This document shows, in pieces, positions 36,131 through 44,090 of a DNA stretch of 45,778 nucleotides. This stretch comes from Bacteroidota bacterium. GTDB taxonomy: Bacteria > Bacteroidota > Ignavibacteria > Ignavibacteriales > Ignavibacteriaceae. The notes beneath the pieces were generated by a model. It ran no database searches. It saw nothing but the letters and a program-made list of their open reading frames with translations, and had not been told where the DNA came from. The stretch is taken from positions 1 to 45,778 of the forward strand of contig JAKAKL010000068.1 in NCBI GenBank assembly GCA_021824565.1. The letters run 5' to 3'. Position numbers and translations under genes: made by a program. Position 1 is the stretch's first letter. Each line of letters starts with the position of its first letter.

Positions 36131-37174
36131 ATGAAAGGCTCTATCCTTATTTATGTTATTTGCGCAGTTTCTATTTTGATATTTAACTCATGCTCGACGT
36201 CCTATCAGCAGTCTTTTGCAAAAAGCGAAAATGTGGGAAGATATACCGGAATATTTCCGTACAGGAATGATTCTAAACAGCTCGACCAAATCAGCAGTTC
36301 TATCCAGCGCGTCTCTACTTTAGCTTTATATGAAGTGTACTTGTTCAGCGAAAATAGTAATATAAAAGCAGCAGATCTAGATGACGAGTTTATTAAGGCA
36401 AACTTTGTAAAGAAAACAGGCATGGATAAATCAACCTCCGGAACGGCAGTTTTAATTTATTCGGATAACGGTAAAGTAGGACTTTTAACTTGCGCTCACG
36501 TTGTTGATTTTCCCGATACGATTATTTCTTACTTCTCTAATGAAAACGGAACGTACACAGATAAAGTTGCAAGCATTGCGTTTAAGAAAAAAGAATTCGT
36601 TTATATCGCCGGGTTCCCAAAAGGCAGTGAAGTTAAAATAATTTTTATGGATAGAAATTCTGACCTTGCTTTGCTTGGTCAGAATTATTCTGAAAAATAT
36701 TTATTAGATTTTCCCGTGCTTAGCTGCGGCTACGGCAAAGCAAAAGAATTGGACCTTGCCAGTTTCGTGTATGTTGTCGGATTCCCATTAAACTATAAAA
36801 TGGTTTCGCAAGCAATTGTAAGCAGCCCGAATTATGACAAGAACGGTTCATTCTTCATCGATGCTGTAATCAATCGCGGATACAGCGGCGGCGCAGTTCT
36901 GGCTGTAAACAGCGAGACCTCAAGATTTGAATGGGTTGGAATCGTTGACTGGGTTGCCGAAGAAAATCAAAATATTTTAGAGCCTCCTTCCGCTGATGAA
37001 AGCTTAGTCTATAACCCGCTGGTTCCTTATAAAGGAGAACTTTACGCAAAGCAAATGAAAGTTATCAAATATGGTATTACTAAAATTGTATCAATGGAAG
37101 AGATTGAAAACTTCCTTATGAAGAATAAAAATTATTTCATTAATGCAGGCTATTCGTTCTCGATTTATAAATAA
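36131..37174 (+). CDS. Lipid-anchored trypsin-like serine protease
   Basis: The 347-residue product has a lipoprotein signal with lipobox FNSC (Cys21). A trypsin/V8-like peptidase domain follows with the full triad: His123 in LLTCAHVV, Asp178 in DRNSDLALL and Ser252 in RGYSGGAVL. FVYVVGFPL before the serine fits the HtrA/V8-like group, but no PDZ domain is present; the last 80 residues contain extra helices. It should act on envelope proteins from the periplasmic or outer-membrane surface. The tRNA-Val gene lies upstream on the other strand. Confidence 0.88.
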   Translation: MKGSILIYVICAVSILIFNSCSTSYQQSFAKSENVGRYTGIFPYRNDSKQLDQISSSIQRVSTLALYEVYLFSENSNIKAADLDDEFIKANFVKKTGMDKSTSGTAVLIYSDNGKVGLLTCAHVVDFPDTIISYFSNENGTYTDKVASIAFKKKEFVYIAGFPKGSEVKIIFMDRNSDLALLGQNYSEKYLLDFPVLSCGYGKAKELDLASFVYVVGFPLNYKMVSQAIVSSPNYDKNGSFFIDAVINRGYSGGAVLAVNSETSRFEWVGIVDWVAEENQNILEPPSADESLVYNPLVPYKGELYAKQMKVIKYGITKIVSMEEIENFLMKNKNYFINAGYSFSIYK

Positions 37175-37192: not shown

Positions 37193-37223
37193 TTGACAAA
37201 TGAACAATTTAATATTACTTTTG
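37193..37223 (+). promoter_or_regulatory. Bacteroidota-type promoter of the thr operon
   Basis: TTG at 37193-37195 is followed 20 bases later by TACTTTTG at 37216-37223, a perfect TAnnTTTG -7 box. Transcription would start near 37231, some 13 bases ahead of the leader peptide. This arrangement is the known housekeeping promoter pattern of the Bacteroidota. Confidence 0.65.
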
Positions 37224-37243
37224 TGCAAGCTTATTTTAAATAT

Positions 37244-37324
37244 ATGAAAATCAACAATAAATATTTTTTTACAAACTGTTTCACCACAACAATGCACACC
37301 CCGAAGACTCTCTACGGCGGCTGA
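37244..37324 (+). CDS. Threonine-rich leader peptide of the thr attenuator
   Basis: This 26-residue ORF has six threonines (positions 10, 14, 15, 16, 19 and 22), including the run TTTMHT, and ends LYGG then TGA. Four of the codons are ACA or ACC around the run. It lies between a good promoter and a terminator in front of thrA. By analogy with the E. coli thr leader, slow translation at the Thr codons when charged tRNA-Thr is scarce would expose the antiterminator segment that begins at the stop codon. The product need not be functional in itself. Confidence 0.8.
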   Translation: MKINNKYFFTNCFTTTMHTPKTLYGG

Positions 37325-37366
37325 AGCACGGTTGTGTAAAGTAATAAGATTAAAAACCGGCTTCAG
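37321..37366 (+). promoter_or_regulatory. Antiterminator hairpin of the thr leader
   Basis: CTGAAGC-A-CGGTT (37321-37333) pairs with AACCGGCTTCAG (37355-37366): twelve pairs with a single bulged A at 37328 and a 21-base loop. The left arm starts over the leader stop codon, so a ribosome that reaches the stop masks it, while one stalled at the Thr codons leaves it free. The right arm uses the same bases as the left arm of the terminator, so the two hairpins exclude each other. Confidence 0.75.
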
Positions 37367-37387
37367 AGATGAAGCCGGTTTTTTTTT
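37354..37387 (+). terminator. Attenuator terminator ahead of thrA
   Basis: AAACCGGCTTC (37354-37364) and GAAGCCGGTTT (37371-37381) form eleven perfect pairs around the loop AGAGAT, followed by a run of T to 37387. It is a strong intrinsic terminator placed 38 bases ahead of the thrA start, so it must be conditional if the operon is expressed from the promoter at 37193-37223. Confidence 0.92.
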
Positions 37388-37425
37388 ACCCTTATCATTT
37401 GAATGCATTGAAAGAAAAATAAAAT

Positions 37426-39882
37426 ATGAAAGTTCTAAAGTTTGGCGGATCTTCTGTCGGGAATCCCGAAAGAATTAAAAATGTTATTGAAATTATTAAA
37501 CGATCTATTCATTCAAACAGAAAAATTGCTGTAATATTTTCCGCTTTCCAGGGAGTAACTGACGAATTAATTAAAATTAGTAATCTCGCCGCTGCGGGCA
37601 ACGGTGAGTATTTTGAGATGTATAAATTATTGGAAAAGAAACATCTCCAAATTGCTAAAGAACTTCTCAACGTGAAAACCCAGAGCAACTCTCTCGCAAA
37701 TGTTAAATTAAATTTGAATGAACTTGAAGACGTTCTGCATGGCGTTTATTTGGTAAAAGAATTGTCTGCCAGAACTTTAGATTTTATTTTGAGCTTCGGC
37801 GAAAGACTTTCTGCTTATGTTATTTCTCAAGCTTTAAAAGATAACGGCGTCGACTGCGAGTTCCTTGACAGCCGGCAGCTTATAAAAACAGACGAAAACT
37901 TTGGAGCGGCGAAAGTAGATTTTGCATCAAGCAATGACAACATAGTTAAATATTTTAACTCGCATAAAAAATTCCAGGTGATTACGGGCTTTATTGCTTC
38001 AACCAAAAGCAAAGAAACCACAACACTTGGCAGAGGCGGCTCTGATTATTCTGCTTCTATTTTTGCTTCCGCTTTAAACGCAAAAGAAATTGAAATATGG
38101 ACCGATGTTGACGGCGTTCTTACCGCCGATCCTAAAAAAGTTAAGAAAGCCTTTTCGTTAAAGAACCTTACCTACGAAGAAGCAATGGAACTTTCCCACT
38201 TCGGCGCAAAAGTTATTCATCCGCCGACAATGCAGCCTGCGCTTGATAAAAAAATCCCGATAAGAATTAAAAATACTTTTAACCCGTTATTTGAAGGAAC
38301 GGTAATTAACGGAAAGAGTGAAGCGAATGATTATCTTATAAAAGGCATTTCGTCTATCGATAATATTTCTCTTATAAGAATTCAAGGCGGCGGAATGGTC
38401 GGTGAAGCAGGATTGGCGCAAAGAATTTTTGCCGCGCTTGGCACTAAAAAAATAAATATTATTTTGATTACTCAAGCTTCGTCTGAACATTCGCTTTGCT
38501 TTGCAATACTTCCCAACGATGCTGAAGCCGCGGTAAAAGCAATTCAATCCGAGCTTCATTATGAAATTAATGAAAAGAAAATCTACGATCCGATAGTTGA
38601 AAACAATTTGTCGATCATTGCAGTTGTCGGCGAAAATATGCGGAACAGGCCGGGAATTTCTGCAAAAGTTTTTCAAGCGCTTGGCAAAAACGGAATCAAC
38701 ATTGTAGCTATCGCTCAAGGCTCTTCAGAATTGAACATATCAACTGTTGTTTCTCAGGATAATGTTACAAAAGCTCTAAACGCTTTGCACGACGCGTTTT
38801 TCCTTTCGATTACAAAAACAGTAAATCTTTTTATTGTCGGCACCGGATTAATCGGCGGAACATTGCTTAGACAAATTTCTAATCAAACAAATTTTTTAGC
38901 TAAAGAATATTTGCTTAATGTAAAAATCATTGCGCTTGCAAACCGCAAGAAAATGTTTATCGATTCGAACAGCATTGACCCTGCGGATTGGGAAAATAAA
39001 ATTGAGTCCTCGGAATCAAGTACCAACCTCGATAAGCTAATTGATCATATGAAGAAACTGAATCTTCCTAACAGCATTTTTGTTGATTGTACTGCTAGCG
39101 AAGAGGTTGTTGACAAATACCAGGCTATACTTGATGCCAGCATATCAATCGTAACACCGAATAAAAAAGCCAATTCAAGAAGCATGGAATTTTATCAGAG
39201 CCTTAAACAGTCCGCTCTTTATCATAACGTGAAATTTTTATACGAAACAAACGTCGGCGCCGGTCTTCCGATTATTAATACAGTTAGAGATTTGGTTTCA
39301 AGCGGAGATAAAATAATTATGATCGAAGGAATTCTATCGGGCACTTTAAGTTATCTCTTTACTTCTTTTACTAAAGGAAAATCTTTCAGCCATATTCTTA
39401 AAGAAGCAAAAGCAAAAGGCTTTACTGAACCTGATCCGAGAGACGATCTTAACGGGATGGACTTTGCTAGAAAGCTTTTGATCCTCGCCCGCGAAGTTGG
39501 GATGACAATGGAATTAAAAGACGTTAAGGTCGAAAATATTGTGCCGGCAAGAGCAAGAAATTCAAAATCAATTGAAGACTTTTTTACCAGGCTTGAAAAA
39601 TGCGATGATGAATTTGAACTGAAAAGAAAATCTGCTGAGGACAAAGGCAAAGTACTTCGATACATTGCAAAGCTGGAAAACGGCAAAGCGGAAATATCTT
39701 TGCACGAAATTGATGACAAACATCCGTTCTATTCTTTATCGGCAACCGACAATATTATTGCTCTTACAACTAAGCACTATAAAGATCGTCCGATAGTTAT
39801 CAAAGGTCCCGGCGCCGGAGCAGACGTAACTGCGGCTGGTGTATTTGCAGACATCATTAGAATTTCTAATTATTTAATTTAA
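37426..39882 (+). CDS. thrA: Bifunctional aspartokinase / homoserine dehydrogenase
   Basis: The 818-residue fusion catalyses the first and third steps from aspartate to threonine and methionine. The aspartokinase half begins MKVLKFGGSSVGNPERI and contains GRGGSDYSASI and WTDVDGVLTADP. Two ACT repeats follow (VGEAGLAQRIFAALGTKKINI; GENMRNRPGISAKVFQALGKNGINIVAIAQGSSELNIS), which in this family bind threonine for feedback control. The dehydrogenase half from about 465 has the NAD(P) motif IVGTGLIGGTLL, the active region YETNVGAGLPII and FTEPDPRDDLNGMDFARKLLILARE. It is the first gene after the attenuator. Confidence 0.97.
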   Translation: MKVLKFGGSSVGNPERIKNVIEIIKRSIHSNRKIAVIFSAFQGVTDELIKISNLAAAGNGEYFEMYKLLEKKHLQIAKELLNVKTQSNSLANVKLNLNELEDVLHGVYLVKELSARTLDFILSFGERLSAYVISQALKDNGVDCEFLDSRQLIKTDENFGAAKVDFASSNDNIVKYFNSHKKFQVITGFIASTKSKETTTLGRGGSDYSASIFASALNAKEIEIWTDVDGVLTADPKKVKKAFSLKNLTYEEAMELSHFGAKVIHPPTMQPALDKKIPIRIKNTFNPLFEGTVINGKSEANDYLIKGISSIDNISLIRIQGGGMVGEAGLAQRIFAALGTKKINIILITQASSEHSLCFAILPNDAEAAVKAIQSELHYEINEKKIYDPIVENNLSIIAVVGENMRNRPGISAKVFQALGKNGINIVAIAQGSSELNISTVVSQDNVTKALNALHDAFFLSITKTVNLFIVGTGLIGGTLLRQISNQTNFLAKEYLLNVKIIALANRKKMFIDSNSIDPADWENKIESSESSTNLDKLIDHMKKLNLPNSIFVDCTASEEVVDKYQAILDASISIVTPNKKANSRSMEFYQSLKQSALYHNVKFLYETNVGAGLPIINTVRDLVSSGDKIIMIEGILSGTLSYLFTSFTKGKSFSHILKEAKAKGFTEPDPRDDLNGMDFARKLLILAREVGMTMELKDVKVENIVPARARNSKSIEDFFTRLEKCDDEFELKRKSAEDKGKVLRYIAKLENGKAEISLHEIDDKHPFYSLSATDNIIALTTKHYKDRPIVIKGPGAGADVTAAGVFADIIRISNYLI

Positions 39883-39923: not shown

Positions 39924-40970
39924 ATGGAAAACTCAACTAAAATACCGGTCGGCATATTAGGAGCCACCGGAAGTGTAGGTCAAAAATTTATTTCATTGTT
40001 AGCGAATCATCCCTGGTTTGAAATTGCGGAAGTTGCCGCTTCCGAAAGATCAGCGGGAAAGTTATACAAGCAAGCTGTCAACTGGATTCTCTCAACTCCG
40101 CTTCCGGGTTTTGTCGGCAACTTAACGGTTCAAGAATGCGAACCCGGTCTTAAATCAAAAATCGTTTTCTCCGGGTTGGATTCCGGTGTTGCCGGACCGA
40201 TTGAAGAAGCATTTGCAAAAAAAGGATACATCGTTGTTTCCAATTCTAAAAATCACAGGATGGATAAAGATGTTCCGCTTCTTGTTCCGGAAATTAATGC
40301 CGAACATCTTGAATTAATTAAAACGCAGGATTATAACGGCGGCTGCATCGTTACAAATCCAAATTGTTCTACTATCGGAATGGTTTTAGCGCTGAAACCT
40401 CTTTTTGATAACTTCGGTCTGGAAGCGGTAAATGTTGTTACAATGCAGGCGCTGTCAGGCGCGGGCTACCCGGGCGTTGCCAGCCTTGATATTATAGATA
40501 ATGTTATCCCGTTTATTTCCGGCGAAGAGCCAAAGCTTGAAAGCGAGCCTTTAAAAATTTTGGGAAGCTTCAGTAAAGATCATATTGAAAACGTTGATAT
40601 TAAAATCAGCGCACAGTGTAACCGCGTTGCTGTTATTGACGGACATCTCGAATGCGTCCAGGTAAAATTGAAAAAGAAAGCGTCGCGCGAAGAAATAATT
40701 TCTGCCTGGAGAAACTATTCCGCCGAACCTCAAAAATACGAATTGCCTTCGGCTCCGGTTCATCCGGTTTATTATTTTGAAGAAGAAAAATATCCTCAGC
40801 CGCGCATTCACCGCGATCTTGATAAAGGTATGGCAGCGTCGGTAGGAAGACTTAGAGAAGACAATTTGTTCGATTTTAAATTTGTGGTTCTGTCGCATAA
40901 TACGAATAGAGGCGCGGCAGGCGGAGCTATTCTATGCGCAGAATTAATGAAAGCTAAAGGATATATTTAA
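39924..40970 (+). CDS. asd: Aspartate-semialdehyde dehydrogenase
   Basis: The 348-residue enzyme reduces aspartyl phosphate to aspartate semialdehyde with NADPH. GATGSVGQ at 13-20 binds NADPH, Cys148 in TNPNCSTIG is the catalytic residue, and the His in VIDGHLE fits the active site. The length and motifs resemble the archaeal/fungal-type branch more than the E. coli type. It follows thrA by 41 bases in the same operon, supplying the intermediate between the two ThrA activities. Confidence 0.95.
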   Translation: MENSTKIPVGILGATGSVGQKFISLLANHPWFEIAEVAASERSAGKLYKQAVNWILSTPLPGFVGNLTVQECEPGLKSKIVFSGLDSGVAGPIEEAFAKKGYIVVSNSKNHRMDKDVPLLVPEINAEHLELIKTQDYNGGCIVTNPNCSTIGMVLALKPLFDNFGLEAVNVVTMQALSGAGYPGVASLDIIDNVIPFISGEEPKLESEPLKILGSFSKDHIENVDIKISAQCNRVAVIDGHLECVQVKLKKKASREEIISAWRNYSAEPQKYELPSAPVHPVYYFEEEKYPQPRIHRDLDKGMAASVGRLREDNLFDFKFVVLSHNTNRGAAGGAILCAELMKAKGYI

Positions 40971-40999: not shown

Positions 41000-41932
41000 A
41001 TGAAAAAAATAAAAGTTTTTGCTCCGGCTTCGGTTACTAATGTAGGCAGCGGTTTCGATGTTATGGGCTTTGCCATTGAAAAACCCGGCGATGAAATTAT
41101 TCTCAAGATTACTGATGAGCCAGGCATTAGGATAACAAAAATTACCGGAGACGGAGGAAAACTAAGTAAAGATCCGTTAAAAAATACTGCCGGAGTTTCA
41201 TTATTATCTTTAGTTGAACATCTTGGTTTTAAAAAGGGAATTGAAATTGAACTTCATAAAAAAATGGCTTTGGGCAGCGGTCTCGGATCGAGCGCTGCCA
41301 GCGCTGTCGCCAGCGTGTTCGCGTTTAATGAGTTGCTGGGCGGGCTTCTTTCCAAAAAAGAATTAATTCAATTCGCACTTGAAGGCGAAAAATTAACGTG
41401 CGGCGGAACTCCGCATGCCGATAATGTCGCCGCTTGTTTAATGGGCGGGTTCGTAATTGTTAGAAGCATTTCTCCCATAGATGTAATTAATATTGATTAT
41501 CCCAAAAATCTTTATTGCACAATTGTTCATCCTCATCTTGAAATTATAACTGCTAATACAAGAAAGATACTGCGCAAGCATATCCTTCTTTCCGACGCTG
41601 TGAAGCAATGGGGAAATGTAGCGGGGCTTGTTGCCGGTCTTGTTAGCAGCAACTACGAATTGATAGGAAATTCTCTTCAGGATTTTATCGTCGAGCCGGT
41701 GCGGTCCATATTAATTCCAAACTTTTATGAAGTGAAAGAAGCCGCATTAAAATCCGGCGCTGTCGGATGCAGCATATCAGGTTCCGGTCCGTCTATTTTT
41801 GCTTTTAGTAAATCTAAGCCCGCTGCCGAAAAAGCCGGTGCGGCTATGAGAAAAGTTTTATCGGATATTGGAATCGGCAATGATCTTTATATCTCTAAAA
41901 TAAACCGAACAGGCCCCAGGGTTGTTTCCTAA
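41000..41932 (+). CDS. thrB: Homoserine kinase
   Basis: This 310-residue GHMP-family kinase phosphorylates homoserine with ATP. The N-terminal PASVTNVGSGFDVMGFA and the phosphate loop LGSGLGSSAAS at 91-101 are diagnostic, and the third GHMP motif AVGCSISGSGPSIFAF lies near residue 255. It starts 29 bases after asd and ends two bases before thrC, so it is tightly coupled to that gene. Confidence 0.96.
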   Translation: MKKIKVFAPASVTNVGSGFDVMGFAIEKPGDEIILKITDEPGIRITKITGDGGKLSKDPLKNTAGVSLLSLVEHLGFKKGIEIELHKKMALGSGLGSSAASAVASVFAFNELLGGLLSKKELIQFALEGEKLTCGGTPHADNVAACLMGGFVIVRSISPIDVINIDYPKNLYCTIVHPHLEIITANTRKILRKHILLSDAVKQWGNVAGLVAGLVSSNYELIGNSLQDFIVEPVRSILIPNFYEVKEAALKSGAVGCSISGSGPSIFAFSKSKPAAEKAGAAMRKVLSDIGIGNDLYISKINRTGPRVVS

Positions 41933-41934
41933 AA

Positions 41935-43242
41935 ATGAATTACTACAGCACTAATAATAAAAATTTATCGGTCTCATTCCGCGAAGCAGTAGTTAAAGGT
42001 ATTGCCGGCGACGGCGGACTTTTTATGCCTTCGTATATTCCAAAGCTTTCCGAAAAATTTTTTAATGAAATTGATAAATTATCCCTCATAGAAATTGCCT
42101 ATGAAGTTTCTTCTAGATTTATTGAGAATGAAATCCCAAAGAATGATTTGCAAACGATTGTTGATAGATCAATTTCATTTGACGTTCCTTTAGTTAGGCT
42201 TTCCGATAATCTTTCAATACTTGAACTGTTTCATGGACCGACTTTAGCGTTCAAAGATTTCGGCGCCCGATTTATGGCGAACACTCTTGGCTATTTCCTT
42301 CAGCATGAAAATGATCATGTTACGATTTTAGTCGCTACATCCGGCGATACCGGCAGCGCTGTGGCTAACGGCTTTTATAAAGTTGACGGAATAAACGTTG
42401 TTATTCTTTATCCTTCCAATAAAGTAAGTGAAATCCAGGAGAAGCAGCTTACTACTCTTGGAGAAAATATTACCGCGCTTGAAATCGAAGGCACGTTTGA
42501 CGACTGCCAGAAGCTTGTTAAAGCTGCCTTTGTCGATCAAGACCTTATTAAAAATAAAAAATTATCTTCGGCAAACTCGATAAACATCGCTCGATTGCTT
42601 CCGCAGTCTTTCTATTATTTCAAATCTTACGCTTCGCTTAAAAGCCTAAATAAAAAAGTTGTCTTTTCTGTCCCCAGCGGAAACCTCGGCAATCTTACCG
42701 CCGGTCTCTTTGCTAGAGAGATGGGCTTGCCTGCGTTCCATTATATTGCCGCCGCAAACGCAAACGATGTATTCCCAAAATATTTGACGTCGTCAATCTT
42801 TGATCCGAAGCCATCTGTAAAAACTTTTTCAAATGCAATGGATGTCGGCAATCCAAGCAACTTTGCAAGAATACTTTCTCTTTATAATAACGATTACGAA
42901 AAAATAAAAAAGACGATATACGGCGCGAGTTTTTCAGATACCGATACTCTTGAAGCGATAAAAAATATTCATTCTAAATACGGCTACACAATTGATCCGC
43001 ACGGCGCCGTCGGCTGTCTCGCTTTTGATGAATACTCGCGGAAGTTCAAAGATGAAAATGTTGCCGGCGTTATTCTTGAAACAGCGCATCCTGCGAAGTT
43101 TCTTGATGTAGTTAATCTGTCCGTAAAAGATGAAATAAAAATCCCGGCGCGGCTGGAAGATTCGATGAAGAAAGAAAAAAGATCAATACTCATGAGGAAT
43201 GATTATAAAGACTTCAAAGAATTTCTTCTTCATCATAAATAA
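41935..43242 (+). CDS. thrC: Threonine synthase
   Basis: This 435-residue PLP enzyme converts O-phosphohomoserine to threonine. The PLP lysine is Lys107 in LFHGPTLAFKDFGARF, and ATSGDTGSAVANGFY and VPSGNLGNLTAG bind the cofactor phosphate. The length fits the short bacterial class. It begins two bases after the thrB stop. Confidence 0.96.
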   Translation: MNYYSTNNKNLSVSFREAVVKGIAGDGGLFMPSYIPKLSEKFFNEIDKLSLIEIAYEVSSRFIENEIPKNDLQTIVDRSISFDVPLVRLSDNLSILELFHGPTLAFKDFGARFMANTLGYFLQHENDHVTILVATSGDTGSAVANGFYKVDGINVVILYPSNKVSEIQEKQLTTLGENITALEIEGTFDDCQKLVKAAFVDQDLIKNKKLSSANSINIARLLPQSFYYFKSYASLKSLNKKVVFSVPSGNLGNLTAGLFAREMGLPAFHYIAAANANDVFPKYLTSSIFDPKPSVKTFSNAMDVGNPSNFARILSLYNNDYEKIKKTIYGASFSDTDTLEAIKNIHSKYGYTIDPHGAVGCLAFDEYSRKFKDENVAGVILETAHPAKFLDVVNLSVKDEIKIPARLEDSMKKEKRSILMRNDYKDFKEFLLHHK

Positions 43243-43274: not shown

Positions 43275-44090
43275 ATGAAATCATATAATAAAGCTGCTAT
43301 ACTTGGGGGAGGAAATATTGGTCAGGCAATTGCTAACGGCTTAGTAAGCTCTAATCTTTTCCCGCCTGAAAAAATATTTATTACAAAGCGCAGAATCGAC
43401 AACGTAAAACATCTTGCTGAAAAAGGTTTCAACTTGACTCAGAATAATTTAGAGGCTGTTAAAGAATCCGAAATAATAATCGTTGCCGTTCAACCCAAGC
43501 AGCTTGATGAAGTCCTTAAAGAAATTAGTCCCGCGATAAATGAAAATAAACATATAATTATTTCCGTTGTGTCGGGCGCAAGCATTAAAGCTATTAAAGA
43601 ACTTACCGGCAAAAATGCTCCGGTAGTTAGAGCAATGCCCAACACCGCAATTGCAATCGGCGAATCGATGACCTGTATTTCTTCCGATACTAAAACAAAC
43701 GGCGCAATAAAAATTGCGGAAGAGATTTTCAGCTCCGTCGGCAAGACTATGATAATTGATGAAGAACTTATGGTTCCCGCAACGGCATTATGCGCTTGCG
43801 GTATCGCGTTTTTTCTCCGTGCTATCCGCGCCGCTTCGCAGGGAGGCATTGAGATCGGATTTCATTCCGACGAAGCGATTTTTATGGCTGCACAAACAGC
43901 GAAGGGAGCGGCGTCGCTTCTTGTAAATACCAAGTCTCATCCTGAAAGCGAAGTTGATAAAGTTACCACTCCGAGAGGAATTACTATTTCCGGGCTAAAT
44001 CAAATGGAGCATAACGGCTTCAGCTCTGCGATGATTAAAGGAATTACGACTTCTGCCGAAAAAGCTTCGCGGCTGTATAAAGGCGAATGA
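43275..44090 (+). CDS. proC: Pyrroline-5-carboxylate reductase
   Basis: The 271-residue enzyme makes proline from pyrroline-5-carboxylate with NAD(P)H. It has the dinucleotide motif AAILGGGNIGQAIA, VRAMPNTAIAIGESMT and the C-terminal dimer region VTTPRGITISGLNQMEHNGF typical of ProC. It lies 32 bases after thrC and probably belongs to the same transcript, though proline synthesis is not part of the threonine pathway, so the threonine attenuator may also govern it. Confidence 0.95.
   Translation: MKSYNKAAILGGGNIGQAIANGLVSSNLFPPEKIFITKRRIDNVKHLAEKGFNLTQNNLEAVKESEIIIVAVQPKQLDEVLKEISPAINENKHIIISVVSGASIKAIKELTGKNAPVVRAMPNTAIAIGESMTCISSDTKTNGAIKIAEEIFSSVGKTMIIDEELMVPATALCACGIAFFLRAIRAASQGGIEIGFHSDEAIFMAAQTAKGAASLLVNTKSHPESEVDKVTTPRGITISGLNQMEHNGFSSAMIKGITTSAEKASRLYKGE

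Follow-up and report, generated by a model that had tools for sequence, protein, structure and literature searches.

A probable ribosome-mediated threonine attenuator ahead of the fused thrA gene in Ignavibacteriales and other Bacteroidota

Background

In Escherichia coli, a threonine-rich leader, an antiterminator and a terminator precede the thr operon, whose first gene is a fused thrA, and the enterobacterial thr leader is rich in isoleucine as well as in threonine. The Bacteroid-trp RNA (RF01692) we take to be a trp attenuator. It was described as a likely cis-regulatory RNA of Bacteroidetes (Weinberg 2010, PMC2864571). In 2010, one paper gave leader-peptide systems as known from Proteobacteria and Actinobacteria alone, apart from its own Firmicute His case (PMC2965389), and according to a 2013 survey amino-acid attenuators may stem from gamma-proteobacteria, with very few transfers (PMC3766115). 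Closer to the bacterium studied here, and from the same wider group, Flavobacterium psychrophilum has yielded strong clues to leader-peptide attenuation before amino-acid operons (PMC9723704), in a paper whose main text does not contain the words threonine and thrA, and short ORFs reminiscent of leader peptides were noted in Bacteroides thetaiotaomicron (PMC7366714). Among the literature matches listed, no title or abstract opening describes such a switch for the thr genes of Bacteroidota or Ignavibacteria, and an earlier description in Lopatovskaya 2010 is possible. The type of switch considered below is classical but is hardly recorded in this bacterial branch.

The window, that is, the whole stretch of DNA analysed here, comprises 45,778 nucleotides of the forward strand of contig JAKAKL010000068.1 (assembly GCA_021824565.1), from a bacterium assigned to the Ignavibacteriaceae. 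Ignavibacteriales are placed at NCBI in the phylum Ignavibacteriota of the Bacteroidota/Chlorobiota group, and the closest named matches to the ThrA of the window come from four metagenome genomes labelled "Bacteroidetes bacterium" (85-88% identity) and one labelled "Ignavibacteriales bacterium" (73%).

Results and discussion

A threonine leader with mutually exclusive helices precedes thrA

The presumed regulated gene, thrA (37426-39882), encodes a fused aspartokinase-homoserine dehydrogenase of 818 aa and is followed by asd (39924-40970; aspartate-semialdehyde dehydrogenase), thrB (41000-41932; GHMP kinase) and thrC (41935-43242; threonine synthase), all assigned by Pfam. These three presumed operon members lie on the same forward strand, with gaps of 2-41 bases within the run. 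A pyrroline-5-carboxylate reductase-like gene (43275-44090) begins 32 bases past thrC and may share the transcript. Upstream, the region 37193-37425 is preceded on the same strand by a trypsin-like gene (36131-37174).

The predicted promoter (37193-37223, forward strand) consists of TTGACA at 37193-37198 and the -7 box TACTTTTG at 37216-37223, and it agrees perfectly with the TAnnTTTG consensus, as the initial annotation had it. The strict form TTG-N18-24-TAnnTTTG recurs in 12 of 21 leader upstreams, where shuffled sequences give 0.8%, a background that applies to this strict form alone; relaxing the box to TAnnTT(T/G) raises the count to 20 of the 21. By eye, no TAnnTTTG was seen between terminator and thrA at this locus. 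The leader peptide gene (37244-37324, forward strand) has 26 codons, six of them for threonine as first annotated and one for an internal methionine, and ends with TGA (37322-37324). Its frame as listed opens at an upstream TTG (37184), and we chose ATG 37244 as the start, since the promoter lies upstream of it. Across 21 leaders, threonine accounts for 149 of 535 codons (27.9%, with all four Thr codons in use), compared with 4.9% in 19 genes of the window.

Three helices can be drawn in the leader RNA, all on the forward strand. The intrinsic terminator 3:4 (37355-37387) pairs 37355-37365 with 37370-37380 in 11 pairs around a GAGA loop and runs into a T run at 37379-37387, 38 bases before the thrA start codon. 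It is present in the folded RNA at -27.3 kcal/mol (z -6.4; equalled by none of 200 shuffles), so that the terminator first proposed is borne out by both coordinates and fold energy. When its 3' arm is left out, the antiterminator 2:3 (37321-37366) folds instead at -11.3 kcal/mol (z -2.6; 2 of 200 shuffles as good), its left arm (37321-37333, A37328 bulged) forming 12 pairs with 37355-37366. Pair number and bulge are as initially annotated, but the left arm opens one base before TGA and not at the stop codon, and the bases shared by the two folds, rightly recognised, are 37355-37365 rather than 37355-37364; the original coordinates are accurate to a base or two. What had been overlooked is a third helix, the protector 1:2 (37285-37336), obtained from the fold, in which region 1 (37285-37290 and 37293-37295) pairs with region 2 (37326-37328 and 37331-37336).

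The locus thus combines a leader ORF rich in codons for the pathway product, a terminator before the first gene, an antiterminator that excludes it and a helix 1:2, and we conclude that the thr operon is very likely controlled here by ribosome-mediated transcription attenuation on the classical four-segment plan.

Comparison with known families

The arrangement resembles enterobacterial thrL (RF00506, PF08254) in its threonine-rich leader peptide, 2:3 antiterminator, 3:4 terminator and fused thrA as first gene. It differs in its Bacteroidota-type promoter, in the position of asd between thrA and thrB, and in the second enriched residue, which is methionine in Ignavibacteria and isoleucine in enterobacteria. 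The Rfam model RF00506 (Thr_leader) scores 33.5 bits in the window (301-base search, E 9e-5), below its gathering score of 55. Class-wide, none of 149 genomes exceeds this cut-off and 139 contain some match at E up to 10 (27-47 bits among the matches listed), and therefore 33.5 bits is hardly specific; the best listed match in the own genome, at 31.1 bits, falls on another contig. Daejeonella (L088) reaches 46.4 bits, still below 55, and four further loci (L010, L017, L018, L085) give no match at E up to 1. Homology to the enterobacterial Thr_leader family was dropped in view of these sub-cut-off matches in most of the class. The window leader peptide finds no Pfam family at E up to 10, Leader_Thr (PF08254) included, and no NCBIfam match; neither it nor the trpE leader of the same genome matches Bacteroid-trp (RF01692). 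No Rfam model of a T-box or riboswitch is met in the window, where only a tRNA reaches its gathering score.

A covariance model built from the element itself (R1) was searched in 245 genomes of the class and found matches at E up to 0.01 in 12. Strong ones were the own thrA site (85.5 bits), which was also the only match in its genome at that threshold, and the thrA of G038 (66.7 bits); the matches in the remaining ten genomes do not exceed 36 bits.

A model for the switch

We propose that RNA polymerase starts a few bases beyond the -7 box and transcribes the leader. With ample Thr-tRNA, the ribosome would reach TGA and, stationed at the stop codon, would be expected to mask the left antiterminator arm, in which case segment 3 would pair with 4 and transcription would end at the T run. 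With scarce Thr-tRNA, it would pause at the Thr codons, 2:3 would form and thrA-asd-thrB-thrC would be transcribed. With no ribosome on the leader, 1:2 would form and 3:4 would terminate. Very probably, then, the switch turns the threonine genes on only when threonine, perhaps also methionine, is short.

The position of the Thr codons is consistent with this model. In the window leader, the last one lies 5 codons before the stop, and the others of the control run lie at 8 and 11-13; of 20 tabulated leaders, 14 have their last Thr codon at 5 or 6, and the rest have it at 2 (three leaders), 3, 8 and 11. The ribosome footprint extends ~12-13 bases past the first A-site base. With the last Thr codon in the A site, the front edge of the ribosome would therefore lie just short of base 37321, and a stall there would free the RNA from 37321 onward.

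Terminated leader RNA or the leader peptide might, in addition, act in trans, as has been reported for peTrpL of Sinorhizobium (PMC7298713). Our data give no sign of such an activity, which would add to attenuation rather than replace it, and we regard it as improbable.

The element is kept in the genus and scattered beyond it

A search of 59 genomes of relatives matched the ThrA query in 45, from which 38 fused-thrA copies were taken; 35 have at least 180 bases upstream and three are too short, and in G002 the gene is split over two contigs. Our detector looks for a Thr leader (12-45 codons) with a terminator behind it, and reports antiterminator energy without requiring it. It was positive in 20 of the 35 copies, the own one included. 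In the genus it picked up all 11 loci (the own and ten others), and in family f3 all five; the remainder of the own family yielded 3 of 10, and family f2 yielded 1 of 8. The 15 negatives comprise the other seven from the remainder of the family, a second copy there (in G029) and seven from f2. A wider f2 sample gave one positive among 16 fused copies, one of them too short, and this positive is the genome already counted. Among short loci, L008 has a visible terminator, and L014, of the same genus, shows none within the 92 bases between contig start and gene, although the T run of the own locus ends 38 bases short of thrA. The element thus appears firm in the genus and in f3, and patchy elsewhere. 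Alignment of related thrA upstreams, proposed from the outset as a check, favours the attenuator: every locus of the genus with enough upstream DNA has leader and terminator, and the alternative pairing is retained. Against it, much of the family and order is without the element.

Both rival helices are conserved. In an alignment of 19 sequences (A3), from which L019 and L055 (shifted stop) and L024 (different terminator; likewise excluded when testing 1:2 and counting codons) were left out, the antiterminator is paired in 90.8% of cells and the terminator in 94.3%, versus at most 57% for slid versions. None of 500 shuffles reaches the antiterminator covariation score; only two of its pairs show two-sided changes, a number reached by 128 of 500 shuffles. 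Covariation in the terminator is weak, its score being reached by 16 of 500 shuffles. At columns 15, 55 and 76, C-G-C changes jointly to U-A-U in L017, L018 and L021, with both rival helices kept, and L022 and L023, likewise of f3, keep only the antiterminator half. This triple change is limited to f3 and may be a single event.

Swapping arms between sequences also supports the predicted antiterminator and helix 1:2. With 14 hand-picked positives among named genomes (see below), left arms pair at -14.7 kcal/mol in their own sequence versus -10.5 when swapped (0 of 20000 permutations). For helix 1:2, swapping region 1 among 21 sequences gives a mean of -11.9 kcal/mol for own pairs versus -9.1 for swapped ones (0 of 20000 permutations), and on 14 hand-picked representatives one of 20000 permutations was as low. 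Ranks of own pairs in this test span 1 to 13 of 21, the window sequence being only fifth.

Named genomes of other Bacteroidota carry the same layout

We collected 47 named fused-thrA loci, of which 44 have at least 200 bases upstream. The detector is positive in 34 of these 44, versus none of 155 control genes (other genes in L049-L097). Many of the 34 are close kin (Epilithonimonas, Chryseobacterium) and hence non-independent, and six of the 47 (L049-L053, L056) are contigs shared with the relatives set; four of these six are positive. Of the ten negatives, two bear the label of other phyla. The positives extend to Pedobacter, Nubsella, Daejeonella and Bacteroidales metagenome genomes, in which the sequence differs and the layout is the same. 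In Pedobacter and Nubsella (L061, L062, L063), the leaders are rich in isoleucine besides threonine. The initial annotation had called the locus a clear case worth recording in this group; the case is real, but it is not isolated, such elements being common before named fused thrA, and leader attenuation had already been hinted at in print.

This recurrence bears on another reading of the locus, by which the hairpin would terminate the trypsin-like gene, whose stop it follows on the same strand, and the Thr-rich ORF would be a chance occurrence. Since a recurrent promoter and a leader separate that gene from the terminator, and the pair of leader and terminator recurs ahead of thrA in many genomes and before none of the control genes, we consider this reading highly improbable and retain attenuation of the thr operon.

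Other amino-acid leaders in the order

In the own genome, a His leader (MKKENLNIVNGHEIHHHLHHLFDAGLR; L149, contig C21) lies upstream of hisG and a Trp leader containing WWW (L148, contig C52) upstream of trpE (strand for both given as "-"). Each is followed by a terminator and has a possible antiterminator, that of the Trp leader being weak, with 7 pairs. No Ile/Leu/Val leader was found within 420 bases before ilvB in this genome, and none of its Thr, His and Trp leaders attains an Rfam cut-off. Homologues were sought in 41 genomes, the own one included; hisG was found in 32 and trpE in 31, and 30 loci of each were analysed. A His leader, defined by a minimum of 4 His and 12% His, stands before 28 of the 30 hisG loci, and none of the 155 control genes has one by the same rule. 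Leaders passing the Trp rule (minimum 2 Trp, 5%) stand before all 30 trpE loci, but this rule is weak, as 15 of 155 controls pass it; two adjacent Trp codons are found in the leaders of 28 of 30 loci versus 4 of 155 controls. Many Trp leaders share an N-terminal TYY, which may reflect a helix 1:2.

These leaders also bear on whether the thr leader could be a nascent-peptide arrest sequence, sensed in the exit tunnel, instead of a sensor of Thr-tRNA. Leaders of the same genus do have a C-terminal GG in common; against this, leader peptides from outside the class have little in common except their Thr runs, and His and Trp leaders each correspond to the operon that they precede. We therefore hold peptide arrest to be hardly credible here and keep to stalling at Thr codons as the probable signal.

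A second class of Thr leaders lies before a monofunctional aspartokinase in family f2 (L111-L122) and also at L040-L043 and L046; of 14 loci read, L128 is without such a leader. A terminator-like hairpin was seen in none of 12, and a search by eye found no alternative pairing common to all. Within the last 11 codons, ACG supplies 38 of the 50 for threonine, 10 of 12 leaders end in ACG, then CGY or TGY, then the stop, and past the stop C exceeds G by 94 to 30. In L115, L120 and L122, a hairpin surrounds the start of the leader. This class possibly represents Rho-dependent or translational attenuation. As its leaders have no terminator-like hairpin, Thr leaders are presumably able to act otherwise, and translation of the leader before fused thrA might likewise act on thrA translation or on Rho-dependent termination instead of through the intrinsic terminator. 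At fused thrA, however, conservation covers both a strong terminator and the antiterminator overlapping it, and the 101 bases from leader stop to thrA start at our locus are far for coupling, which makes this alternative very improbable; intrinsic termination remains the preferred route.

Methionine as a possible second signal

Besides threonine, methionine is frequent in the Ignavibacterial Thr leaders: of 535 post-start codons in 21 leaders, 43 (8.0%) are for methionine; every leader has at least one, and 39 of the 43 are no more than two residues away from a Thr. The corresponding figures are 0.8% in same-order His leaders, 3.2% in Trp leaders (27 of 30 tabulated; L198, L202 and L212 omitted) and 1.7% in 19 genes of the window, and a hand-picked 15 of 28 Thr leaders from other Bacteroidota have 1.2% methionine and 10.4% isoleucine.

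Homoserine is the precursor common to threonine and methionine, and in the own genome the ThrA query turned up no further homoserine dehydrogenase. The Ignavibacterial thr leaders may conceivably sense both Thr-tRNA and Met-tRNA, one attenuator thereby watching both products of homoserine, a reading that we offer tentatively and hold to be rather doubtful. Counting against dual sensing, three genomes of the same genus (G004, G010, G012) have a separate homoserine-dehydrogenase-like match, so that ThrA is not their sole such enzyme, yet their leaders carry methionine. Within 16 codons of the stop, the paired fraction is 0.54 for internal Met codons, 0.58 for other codons and 0.43 for Thr codons, a result that neither proves sensing nor rules out structure; because methionine has one codon only, constraint on the RNA and on the peptide look alike.

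On a broader and equally tentative view, methionine would be the partner of threonine in Ignavibacteria, and isoleucine in Pedobacter and kin as in E. coli, and ribosome-mediated attenuation, with the His and Trp attenuators, would be the order's standing amino-acid control. If true, this would imply tight transcription-translation coupling in the order. In the excerpt of one paper, Bacteroidota are not named among the phyla classed as showing runaway transcription (PMC13323073), which fits coupling.

Conclusions

The Thr, His and Trp leaders of Ignavibacteriales, along with the Thr leaders of named genomes of Chryseobacterium, Epilithonimonas, Pedobacter, Daejeonella and Bacteroidales, speak for a much wider spread of attenuation than the 2013 survey suggested, and current RNA and leader-peptide models miss such attenuators. 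As switches of this kind need a ribosome close behind RNA polymerase, they make transcription-translation coupling in this group directly testable.
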